DNA of 36,111 nt from Alphaproteobacteria bacterium (GTDB taxonomy: Bacteria > Pseudomonadota > Alphaproteobacteria > Micropepsales > Micropepsaceae), in NCBI GenBank assembly GCA_947445215.1, contig CANFDA010000006.1, forward strand, positions 1 through 36,111. The letters are read 5' to 3'. A model generated the notes under the pieces. The model was not told the origin of the DNA. It saw only the letters and a program-made list of their open reading frames with translations, and did not search any database. Position 1 is the stretch's first letter. Every line of letters begins with the position of its first letter. Below, one piece after another: positions 25,857-30,390 of the stretch. Made by a program: the position numbers and the translations under genes.

Positions 25857-26768
25857 ATGGCCGGTGTGATCCCCTTTGACCAGCGCGATGGCGTCATCTG
25901 GAAGGATGGCAAACTGGTGCCCTGGAAGGACGCCACGACCCATGTGCTGACCCATGGCCTGCATTATGGCTCCTGCGTCTTCGAGGGGCAGCGCATGTAT
26001 AACGGCACCATCTACAAGCTGAAGGAACATACCGAGCGGCTGCTTGCCTCGGCCGAGACGCTGGGCATGAAGATTCCCTTCACCCGGGTGGAGATCAACC
26101 AGGCCTGCATCGATGTCTGCAAGGCCAACAACATCGTCGATGGCTATCTGCGCCCCGTCGCCTTTCGCGGCAGCGAGATGATGGCCGTGTCGGCCCAGAC
26201 CACCACCATCCATGTCGCCATCGCCACCTGGGCCTGGCCGTCTTATTTCAGCTCGACGGAGAAGCTCAAAGGCATTCGCCTCGACATCGCCCGCTACAAG
26301 CGGCCCTCGCCGGAAACCGAGCCGGTGCATGCCAAGGCGGCCGGCCTCTACATGATCTGCACGCTCTGCAAGCACGAGGCCGAGGCCAAGGGCTATGCCG
26401 ACGCCATGTTCTACGATTATCGTGGCTATGTCAGCGAGGCGACCGGCGCCAATGTCTTCTTCATAAAAGATGGCGAGATTCACACGCCTATACCGGATTG
26501 CTTTCTCAATGGCCTCACACGCCAGTCGGTGATCCGCATCGCCAAGGAACGCCAGATCAAGGTGATCGAGCGCCACATACTGCCGGAAGAAATGAGCAGA
26601 TTCAGCGAATGCTTCCTCACCGGCTCGGCGGCGGAAGTGACGCCGGTGCGAGAAATCGGGCCTTATACCTTCACACCCGGCACGCTCACAGAGCAGCTGA
26701 TGACCGCCTATGCTGACGAAGTGCGCGGCGTTGTGGCCCCTAAAGTCAAATTGGATAGCGTTATATAG
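25857..26768 (+). CDS. ilvE: Branched-chain-amino-acid aminotransferase
   Basis: A 303-residue fold-type IV PLP enzyme for the last step of Leu, Ile and Val synthesis. Motifs: THVLTHGLHYGSCVFEGQR near the N-terminus, YLRPVAFRGSE, the PLP-lysine region EPVHAKAAGLYMICTL, YVSEATGANVFFIKDGEIHTP, and FLTGSAAEVTPVREIG. ATG 25857 is supported by AAGGAAG and by the family's usual MAGVIPFD-like start; the frame is open upstream but non-coding. The leader has a GGGGC/GCCCC stem at about 25795-25807, with no evidence of an attenuator peptide. It is monocistronic and followed by an AT-richer patch. Confidence 0.94.
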   Translation: MAGVIPFDQRDGVIWKDGKLVPWKDATTHVLTHGLHYGSCVFEGQRMYNGTIYKLKEHTERLLASAETLGMKIPFTRVEINQACIDVCKANNIVDGYLRPVAFRGSEMMAVSAQTTTIHVAIATWAWPSYFSSTEKLKGIRLDIARYKRPSPETEPVHAKAAGLYMICTLCKHEAEAKGYADAMFYDYRGYVSEATGANVFFIKDGEIHTPIPDCFLNGLTRQSVIRIAKERQIKVIERHILPEEMSRFSECFLTGSAAEVTPVREIGPYTFTPGTLTEQLMTAYADEVRGVVAPKVKLDSVI

Positions 26769-26791
26769 CCCGCAGATCCATGAAGTGGTGA

Positions 26792-27154
26792 GTACCGATT
26801 TGGCAAAAATCTCTTACGTTGCCTTCTGATGAACTGACATTCGATCTAGATAGTAAAAGTGTGCAGATCGAAATTCGGCTTGCGCTCAAGTCACAGAATG
26901 TTTTCAGCACAAAGGCGACGCTTAACAAATTGCTCGCGAGTCTCAAAGCTAATGGCGATAAAATTTATGGACGTCGCTATGAACAGGTGGATGAGGATGG
27001 CTAGTATGTTTGGTGGCGATGTTGCAGAGCTTCTACTGAGTTGAGGGCTGCCCTCTGGGCGTTCGGAAACATCATAGATAGTACGGATGAAGACTGGGCT
27101 CATGTCCGCATCCTTTCTGCGCTAAACATATTGCAGACACCCAGCGATCAGTAA
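26792..27154 (+). pseudogene. Broken ORF of unknown origin, interrupted by an amber codon, in an AT-richer patch
   Basis: The frame from 26792 runs 120 codons to TAA 27152-27154, interrupted only by TAG at 27002-27004. Upstream it gives a protein-like stretch including SDELTFDLDSKSVQIEIRL and LLASLKANGDKIYGRRYEQ. Downstream it gives ELRAALWAFGNIIDSTDEDW and VRILSALNIL. There is no good start codon; TTG 26819 is possible. Base composition is visibly lower in GC than the flanking genes, suggesting transferred DNA. I do not recognise the family. A CAG-to-TAG change would explain the stop. Alternatively the region is non-coding and the long frame is chance, so confidence is limited. Confidence 0.45.
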
Positions 27155-27259
27155 GGTCAGGAAAGCTCAGAGTTTCTATGTCTTCCAGCGAGCAGTGGCG
27201 TCGTCGTCACTGGATCGTGCTTCGACCCAGGCTAATCCGCCTTCCCGCGTCTTTTCTTT

Positions 27260-27622
27260 CTAGAAGGGTGCGCGCGTCTTCAAATAGTCCATCAGGAATT
27301 CGCAGGCTGCGAAGGCGTCTGCGCGATGGCCCGATGCCGCGGCCACCAGCAGGATGGGATCGCCCAGCTTCAGGGCGCCAACCCGATGGATCACAATGAC
27401 GCCTGTCAGTGCCCAGCGCACCGCGGCTTCCGCCGCAATACGCGCAATCTCGGGTTCGGTCATGCCGGGATAATGTTCCAGCGTCAGGCTTGTCAGGCCA
27501 TCCTCGGCCCGGACATGGCCTGTGAAGCTGGCCGCCGCGCCGGTGACGCCGTTGGCCGCCAGGGCTGCGATTTCCGCGTTTAGGTCTAACGGTGTCTTCT
27601 GGATGACGATCCGGCTGCGCAT
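27260..27622 (-). CDS. moaE: Molybdopterin synthase catalytic subunit, truncated at an amber codon
   Basis: As written this is 120 residues, while MoaE is normally about 150. MoaE transfers sulfur from the MoaD thiocarboxylate to precursor Z to make molybdopterin. The family core is clear: ASFTGHVR, LTLEHYPGMTEPEIARIA, IVIHRVGALKLGDPILLVA and CEFLMDYLKTRAPF. The stop TAG at 27262-27260 stands where MoaE has Trp (APFWK). Reading on gives KEKTREGGLAWVEARSSDDD and ATARWKT to a TAG at 27178-27176, the normal C-terminus. The missing part includes the Lys equivalent to active-site Lys126 of the E. coli enzyme. The full gene would span 27176-27622. It starts 1 base after moaD. Confidence 0.88.
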   Translation of the reverse strand: MRSRIVIQKTPLDLNAEIAALAANGVTGAAASFTGHVRAEDGLTSLTLEHYPGMTEPEIARIAAEAAVRWALTGVIVIHRVGALKLGDPILLVAAASGHRADAFAACEFLMDYLKTRAPF

Positions 27623-27623
27623 C

Positions 27624-27875
27624 TCAGCCTCCCGTCACCGGCGGAAAGAAGGCCACTTCGTCGCCATCGGCCAGTGCTGCATCCAGCCCGGCATGGTGCT
27701 GGTTCACGGCGACGCGGATGCGGTCTTCCTCGGCAAAGGCGCGGGCGTATTTCTCGTCGCGGCCTTTCATGGTTGCAATCAAACCGCGCACATCACGCAC
27801 GCCTTGTGGCAAGGCCATCTCCTCTTCGCCGGTGCCGTTGATCTGCCGCACCCAGGCGAAATATACGAGCGTCAC
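27624..27875 (-). CDS. moaD: Molybdopterin synthase sulfur-carrier subunit
   Basis: An 83-residue ubiquitin-like protein whose C-terminal Gly-Gly (FFPPVTGG) is adenylylated and thiocarboxylated to donate sulfur for molybdopterin. The beta-grasp pattern begins TLVYFAWVRQ and continues with EEDRIRVAVNQ and DGDEVAFFPP. The start is GTG 27875, overlapping the pgsA stop as GTGA (27872-27875). The upstream part of the open frame is a shadow of pgsA. It pairs with moaE, which follows after a single base and is interrupted. Confidence 0.9.
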   Translation of the reverse strand: MTLVYFAWVRQINGTGEEEMALPQGVRDVRGLIATMKGRDEKYARAFAEEDRIRVAVNQHHAGLDAALADGDEVAFFPPVTGG

Positions 27876-28492
27876 GGCTTCAAGCCTCGAGGGTTGGTGT
27901 CGATATGGGCCATGCCGTTGCGGAAATAGATCACGCCGGTATAGACGGTCAGTGCGGCGGCGACCCACAGCAGGATGAAGGCGATCACTTCATAGGTGGC
28001 GCCGGGCATGCCAGGCACGATCCGGTGTGCCAGCGGCGTCAGCAGCATGGCGCCGATCGCCACCATCTGCACGGCGGTCTTGAACTTGGCGATGGCTGTC
28101 ACAGGCATGCTGACCCGTGTTCCCGCCAGGAATTCGCGCAGGCCCGAGACCAGGATCTCGCGTGACAGGATGATGATGGCAGGCACCAGCTTGAGCAGGC
28201 TGAGCATGCCATTGGATTTCACTTCGGTGAAAAACGTCCCTTCCGCCACCAGCATCATCAGCGCCACCGCCACCAGCACCTTGTCGGCGATGGGGTCCAG
28301 CATGCGGCCGAAATCCGATCCGGCATTGAGCTTGCGCGCGGCGAAGCCGTCCAGCCAGTCGCTGGCCCCGGCAATGGCGAAGATCATAAAGGCGAAAATG
28401 CGGGCTGCATCCCCCGGCATCACGAAGGCGATGGCGAAGACGGGCACCAGCAGGATACGTAGGATGGTGATGACATTTGGCAGGGCGAGCAT
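27872..28492 (-). CDS. pgsA: CDP-diacylglycerol-glycerol-3-phosphate 3-phosphatidyltransferase
   Basis: A 206-residue inner-membrane enzyme making phosphatidylglycerophosphate, the precursor of phosphatidylglycerol. The CDP-alcohol phosphotransferase signature DG-x2-AR-x8-G-x3-D-x3-D is exact: DGFAARKLNAGSDFGRMLDP followed by IAD. The N-terminus ALPNVITILRILLVP is typical, and about five membrane segments are predicted. It lies 32 bases downstream of uvrC, and the uvrC-pgsA-moaD-moaE order is widespread in alphaproteobacteria. The GTG of moaD overlaps its stop. Confidence 0.94.
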   Translation of the reverse strand: MLALPNVITILRILLVPVFAIAFVMPGDAARIFAFMIFAIAGASDWLDGFAARKLNAGSDFGRMLDPIADKVLVAVALMMLVAEGTFFTEVKSNGMLSLLKLVPAIIILSREILVSGLREFLAGTRVSMPVTAIAKFKTAVQMVAIGAMLLTPLAHRIVPGMPGATYEVIAFILLWVAAALTVYTGVIYFRNGMAHIDTNPRGLKP

Positions 28493-28524: not shown

Positions 28525-30390
28525 TCACCCGCCTGGATGAAAGAAATCGAAGATTTTCTTAGCCAATGTGGCGCTGACGCCCTCCACCGAGGAGAGGTCG
28601 GTCAGATTGGCCGCCGACACCGCCTTGGCCGAGCCGAAATGCTTCAACAGCGAACGTTTCCGGGCCGCGCCGATGCCGCGGATCTCGTCCAGCGGGTTGG
28701 CGCCGATGGCCGCACTACGCTTCTTGCGATGGCCGCCAATGGCGAAACGGTGCGCTTCGTCACGCAACCGTTGCAGATAATAGAGAACGGGGCTCTTCAA
28801 ATCGAGCCGGAAGGGCTCCTTGCCCGGCAAGTAGAAATGCTCGCGGCCCGCATCGCGGTCATGGCCCTTGGAGATGGAGGCAAGGGCAACATCCTCCACG
28901 CCCAGGTCGGCAAAGACCTGGCAGGCGACGGACAACTGCCCCAGTCCGCCATCGATCAGCACCAGGTCGGGCCGCCGCCACTTCTCGTTGGGCGGCACTT
29001 CCGCTTCCTCCTTTACCAGCCGGGCGAAGCGGCGGCTCAGGACTTCGCGCATCATGGCGTAGTCGTCGCCCGGCGTCAGGTCGGCGGATTTGATGTTGAA
29101 CTTGCGATAATGCGCCTTCTCGAAGCCTTCCGGCCCGGCGACGATGAAAGCGCCAAGCGCATGCGCACCCTGGATGTGGGAATTGTCATAGACCTCGATT
29201 CGGCGCGGCGGTGTATCAAGACCGAAGGCGTCGGCCACGCCTTCCAGCAATTGCGCTTGGGCGCTGTTCTCAGCCATGCGGCGGCCCAATTGCTCGCGGG
29301 CATTGGTAAGGGCGTGCTCCATGATCTGCTGTTTCTCGCCCCGCAGCGGCACGGCGATCTCGACCTTGTGGCCGGCGCTGCTGGCAAGCGCCTCGGCCAT
29401 CAAACCTGCCTCCTTCATCTCGTGCGAAACCAGCAGCAGGCGCGGCGCGGTGCGTTCGTCATAGAACTGGCCGATGAAGGATTTCAGAACTTCCTCCGGC
29501 TTCATGTCGAAGGGCATATTCGGGAAATAAGGCTTGTTGCCCCAGTTCTGTCCGGCGCGGAAGAAGAAGACCTGGATGCAGGTCTGGCCGCCTTCGACAT
29601 GCAGGGCGAAGAGATCGGCCTCGTCGAAACTCGCGGGATTGACGCCCTGGCTCGACTGGATGTGGCTCATGGCGCGCAGCCGGTCGCGCAGCTTGGCGGC
29701 GCGTTCGAACTCCATCGCCTCGGCCGCCTGGTCCATTTCCGCCAACATGGCTTTCTGCACGGCGCTGCTCTTGCCGGAGAGGAAATTCTCCGCCCCCTGC
29801 ACCAGTGCGTTGTAGCCGCTCGCGTCGATGCGCTGGACGCAGGGCGCGCTGCATCGCTTGATCTGGAACAGCAGGCAGGGCCGGGTGCGGCTGTCGAACA
29901 CCGAATCCGAACAGGAGCGCAGCAGGAAGGCGCGTTGCAGCGTATTGAGGGTGCGCGTCACCGCGCCCGCTGAGGCGAAGGGACCGTAATAGACCCCCTT
30001 GGTGCTCTTGGCGCCGCGATGCTTGAGCAGCTGCGGATAGGGGTGATCTTCCCGCAACAGGATATTGGGGAAGCTCTTGTCGTCGCGATAGGAGACGTTG
30101 TAGCGCGGCTTGAGCCGCTTGATCAGGTTAGATTCCAGAAGCAGCGCCTCGGTTTCCGAAGCGGTGGTGACGAACAGCATTTCCGCCGTCTCGAAGATCA
30201 TGCGGGTGAGGCGATCGCTATGGACTCGGCCGGTGGCGTAAGCGGTGACGCGCTTCTTCAGGCTCTTGGCCTTGCCGACATAAAGCACGTCGCCGGTAGC
30301 ACTCAGCATGCGATAGACGCCCGGCGCGTCGGGCAGGGTCTTAAGATAGGCCTGGATGCGGGCAGCCCCGGTCAGGGGTTCGGAACTCAT
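28525..30390 (-). CDS. uvrC: Excinuclease ABC subunit C
   Basis: A 621-residue nuclease that makes both incisions in nucleotide excision repair with UvrA and UvrB. The N-terminal GIY-YIG domain (~15-95) shows DAPGVYRML and [18 protein letters not shown] motif for UvrB contact is near 210 ([14 protein letters not shown]). The RNase H-like 5' nuclease domain includes [13 protein letters not shown] and [11 protein letters not shown]. Two helix-hairpin-helix units are at the end ([31 protein letters not shown]). A Cys-rich patch [13 protein letters not shown] around residue 170-182 fits the reported iron-sulfur site. The start at 30390 is 12 bases after folB. Confidence 0.96.

Follow-up and report, generated by a model that had tools for sequence, protein, structure and literature searches.

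Is the moaE gene of this alphaproteobacterium a working gene, and what does the stop codon within its frame mean for synthesis of the molybdenum cofactor (Moco)? The window, which is the whole stretch of 36,111 bases that we analysed, is an entire contig (C6) of a 1.92 Mb genome that is split into 166 contigs and has a listed completeness of 86%. The moaE frame lies on the minus strand (27176..27622) and consists of 120 codons closed by a TAG and 27 C-terminal codons closed by another TAG. The translation from 27622 to 27176 reads MRSR...FLMDYLKTRAPF, TAG, KEKTREGGLAWVEARSSDDDATARWKT, TAG. The first in-frame TAG (27262-27260) follows KTRAPF and the second is at 27178-27176; 148 positions precede the second, the stopped codon counted. 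The 27 codons past the first TAG form a recognisable MoaE C-terminus, and their counterpart is WKQETRNGETRWAEARASDDAAASRWRKP in G006, the nearest relative, whose MoaE matches best (77% over the 120 residues of the head). An earlier note on this DNA had described the tail as the normal C-terminus, running to the second TAG and giving about 148 residues, and both the length of the frame and the matching tail of G006 bear this out.

The stopped codon was compared with 109 other moaE loci, of which 23 belong to genus members, 6 to other members of the class and 80 are the best of a scan of the collection; 12 of the 42 genomes with a moaE match yielded no locus and lie outside this codon comparison. 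The codon is TGG (Trp) in 109 of 109 loci and a stop in none. In alignments to chain 1fm0_E, the residues around the stop correspond to F124-W125-K126-R127-E128 of the E. coli protein, placing the TAG (27260..27262, minus strand) at the conserved Trp125. The reading of the gene as a moaE stopped at its conserved Trp, with exact coordinates, thus agrees with the relatives, and the one-base change from TGG to TAG proposed in the earlier note fits the codon of every other locus. As in a pseudogene, moaE carries a disabling lesion without counterpart in the 109 relatives.

The MoaE domain is present in the translated part, with PF02391 matching at 120.1 bits (cut-off 23.4) over positions 1-114 of 114. 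The Pfam model ends just 5' of the stop and scores the broken moaE as complete, which shows how a gene of this kind can be called present when a profile match is the sole criterion. For NF007959 (cut-off 175 bits), the 120-residue MoaE scores 119.7 bits, or 147.6 with an X at the stop, and three intact relatives, at 170.3 to 171.9 bits, also fall below the cut-off. The equivalent of Lys119 (in MDYLK) lies within the 120-residue protein and that of Lys126 lies past the stop, so one of the two active-site lysines is translated. The claimed loss of the segment with the Lys126 equivalent holds in the 1fm0_E alignment, and the residue next after Trp is Lys in 109 of 109 loci, as it also is past the stop in this genome. 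The K126A mutant of the bacterial enzyme is given as nearly 60 times slower in PMC4443979, which cites earlier work. In the mechanism we propose, mutation of the Trp codon to amber would yield a 120-residue MoaE without its last 28 residues, including the catalytic Lys126 equivalent, and MPT synthase activity is predicted to be absent or very low.

The 120-residue MoaE may instead work as it is, if the core tolerates the loss of the tail or if the protein serves to bind MoaD. The complete Pfam domain and the Lys119 equivalent in MDYLK are consistent with this, as are the dN of 0.145 and dS of 0.593 of the moaE head against G006 and the intact moaD (27624..27875, minus strand), which encodes the small subunit of MPT synthase with its GG end (TIGR01682, 75.1 bits, cut-off 66.15). 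However, a stop at this codon is seen in none of the 109 relatives, and the short protein is without the Lys126 equivalent. The constraint on the head is an average over the whole time since divergence from G006 and does not show that it persists today, and no client enzyme of the searched families was found. We regard a working short MoaE as very unlikely.

A second change lies 9 bases beyond the TAG. All 109 other loci have Glu, the equivalent of E. coli Glu128, as the third residue after Trp, and this genome has Lys there (AAG, 27251..27253, minus strand); the untranslated tail is altered at this otherwise invariant Glu. The position altered in the human MOCS2B variant E168K is presumably that of E. 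coli Glu128. PMC9607355 describes E168K as a patient variant in Moco deficiency type B with 50% activity in vitro. The human change is a missense in a translated protein, whereas the Lys here sits past a stop. By analogy with E168K, which on our assumption affects the same position and keeps half of the activity, MoaE could retain function with the second change alone. High divergence of the tail was dropped as evidence of decay since the tail is variable among the relatives too, and the invariant Glu alone counts. Compared with E. coli MoaE, the large subunit of molybdopterin (MPT) synthase (PF02391/NF007959; structures 1fm0, 1fma and 1nvi), this copy is alike in its first 120 residues and its Lys119 equivalent, and its position behind moaD and pgsA is as in G006; it is unlike in ending at the Trp125 equivalent, with Lys126 and the tail untranslated and the Glu128 equivalent replaced by Lys.

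Could the stop be bypassed? The earlier note held that Moco synthesis would be impaired unless the codon is read through or another moaE exists, and it suggested looking for a second copy and for amber-suppressor tRNAs. Both searches were run. The profile search with PF02391 found no second moaE in the genome (86% complete), which speaks against a second copy as the remedy. No CTA anticodon was found among the 34 tRNAs found and typed, a list that is incomplete in that several amino acids have no tRNA, and no suppressor tRNA is among them. TAG is the normal end of 15 of 54 conserved genes, those with ends matching G006; this use of TAG at the homologous place, together with the missing CTA tRNA, led us to reject recoding of TAG. 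Conserved programmed readthrough is likewise rejected, as the stop occurs in none of the 109 relatives. Readthrough of the amber codon, by a suppressor tRNA or the local context, would give a full-length MoaE. The frame that is open for 27 codons to the usual end point and the gaps in the tRNA list would suit it, but the tRNA result, the ordinary use of TAG and the comparison with relatives all speak against it, and any MoaE made in full would have Lys in place of the Glu128 equivalent. We consider such readthrough highly improbable.

The earlier note had also proposed a look for molybdoenzyme genes, which was carried out. In the genome, the profile searches gave no match to PF00174 or PF20256, and no enzyme of the DMSO-reductase or xanthine-oxidase families was found; the sole PF00384 match is NuoG, named in PMC6147048 as a Mo-independent homologue. 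MOSC-type molybdoenzymes lie outside the families searched. G006 has one sulfite-oxidase-family gene (L155:8937-9611, PF00174 142.8 bits). A DNA search with 20 kb around this gene showed that in our genome 62 bases on contig C92 stand in its place, with both flanks contiguous, an absence that the earlier note had not seen. Six other genus members were checked: G002, G010, G013, G017 and G022 carry the gene with these flanks on either side, and in the sixth, G004, the upstream flank alone was seen. The 62-base spacer (L185), between an smpB-like gene and a UDG gene, contains the inverted repeat TTGTCATTCCCGC...GCGGGAATGACAAG.

With these results, the claim of impaired Moco synthesis stands in part. 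The single moaE, the 34 tRNAs without CTA and the ordinary use of TAG support it, but the change at the Glu128 equivalent and the missing molybdoenzyme gene suggest that the pathway is being discarded, not that the cell has a handicap in need of rescue. We infer that loss of the enzyme gene preceded the break in moaE, that the pathway no longer works and that it is not under selection any more.

The remaining Moco genes show how far such a loss may have gone. Contig C11 carries moaC, whose MoaC domain is complete (181 bits). The moaC frame (L186) extends about 100 residues beyond this domain, into a region that matches HTH_26 weakly (20.1 bits, below the cut-off of 22), and moaC of G006 (L187, contig C4) has a similar extension. 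The C-terminal half of moeA was found by DNA search and is open as far as the end of contig C61; the search for MoeA_N was negative because moeA runs off this contig end. The profile search did not find moaA, and a DNA search with the moaA-moeA region of G006 gave no more than a 26-base match inside moaA. The gene may lie past the end of C61 or be lost, and moaA together with the 5' part of moeA may fall in an assembly gap. Complete loss of the pathway, which the negative profiles for moaA, MoeA_N and PF00174 had suggested, is weakened as a reading by the C-terminal part of moeA on C61 and by the moaC that was found. Five of the 22 genus members searched (G001, G008, G012, G015 and G018) are without moaE, moaA, moaC, moeA and PF00174 together, so that absence of the whole Moco-related set recurs in the genus.

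The rates of change give an indication of age. Changes unique to this genome compared with those unique to G006 numbered 10 vs 4 in moaE (p=0.18), 3 vs 5 in moaD, 6 vs 4 in the moeA piece and 6 vs 4 in moaC. Upstream of moaE and in the same direction (minus strand) lie moaD and the two control genes pgsA (27872..28492, TIGR00560 142.6 bits) and uvrC (28525..30390, TIGR00194 520.3 bits). The dN/dS values against G006 were 0.27 for moaE, 0.23 for moaD, 0.19 for pgsA and 0.16 for uvrC. A gene with an NYN domain was excluded as a rate control because its 32 vs 6 unique changes stem from a frameshift. Accelerated decay of the Moco genes is unsupported, as there is no significant excess of unique changes vs G006. 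If selection on moaE has ended, it would have ended recently, since no significant sign of long decay is seen; the same rate data are compatible with a sequencing error or a strain variant.

The stop may instead stem from an error in sequencing or assembly, or belong to a minor variant strain, with moaE intact in the population. The draft state of the assembly, with its 166 contigs, and the lack of significant decay in the other Moco genes are in keeping with this, and so are two frame lesions elsewhere in the sampled contigs of the genome. The NYN-domain gene (L185, about 2200-2370) has an extra base, and an HbpS-like gene (L177, 136-595), near a contig end, has a frame change and a stop; both frames are intact in G006, and both lesions may be real or assembly faults. 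Set against an error or variant are the invariant Glu that is also changed 9 bases on, the molybdoenzyme gene independently missing on another contig, and the window itself, where the frames aligned with G006 have no other lesion. We judge an error or variant unlikely. Frame damage throughout the genome was considered and rejected. Many frames were flagged; in those aligned, the stops proved to lie 5' of the true start or in frames that overlap, except in the NYN-domain and HbpS-like genes, and five flagged frames were judged by their coordinates alone.

The moaE tail borders an AT-rich stretch of 407 bases (26769..27175) that lies between it and a convergent ilvE-like gene and is absent from G006, where the ilvE-like and moaE frames abut end to end. 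The GC content is 46% over 26761-27180 and 64% over the window. Searches of 36 relatives, of plasmids and of phages gave no match to the stretch 26769-27175, and a Pfam search of it gave no family, with one match at chance level.

Taken together, it is likely that moaE lost its function recently, in a lineage on its way to giving up Moco synthesis. The intact moaD and MoaC domain, the open part of moeA, the lack of a significant excess of unique changes and the 86% completeness of the genome count against pathway loss. The stop in moaE probably reflects nothing more unusual than the discarding of a pathway, and the case is ordinary in kind. PMC6147048 reports that a limited number of clades have lost the Mo-utilization trait in parallel and that some organisms have it only in part. 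The trait is partly present here as in the cases described there; those are mostly molybdoproteins without a complete pathway, whereas here pathway genes remain and the gene of a client enzyme is missing. As a further and very improbable speculation, the genome may be a snapshot of the order of Moco loss, with the client enzyme lost first and MPT synthase next, moaC, moaD and at least part of moeA still intact, and the 120-residue MoaE perhaps retained to bind MoaD in some function apart from MPT synthesis. If the inactivation is real, it would represent an early stage of Moco loss in which pathway genes outlast an enzyme that they served. Some members of the genus have the full set and in others none of it was detected, and the order of loss would then be traceable within the genus.
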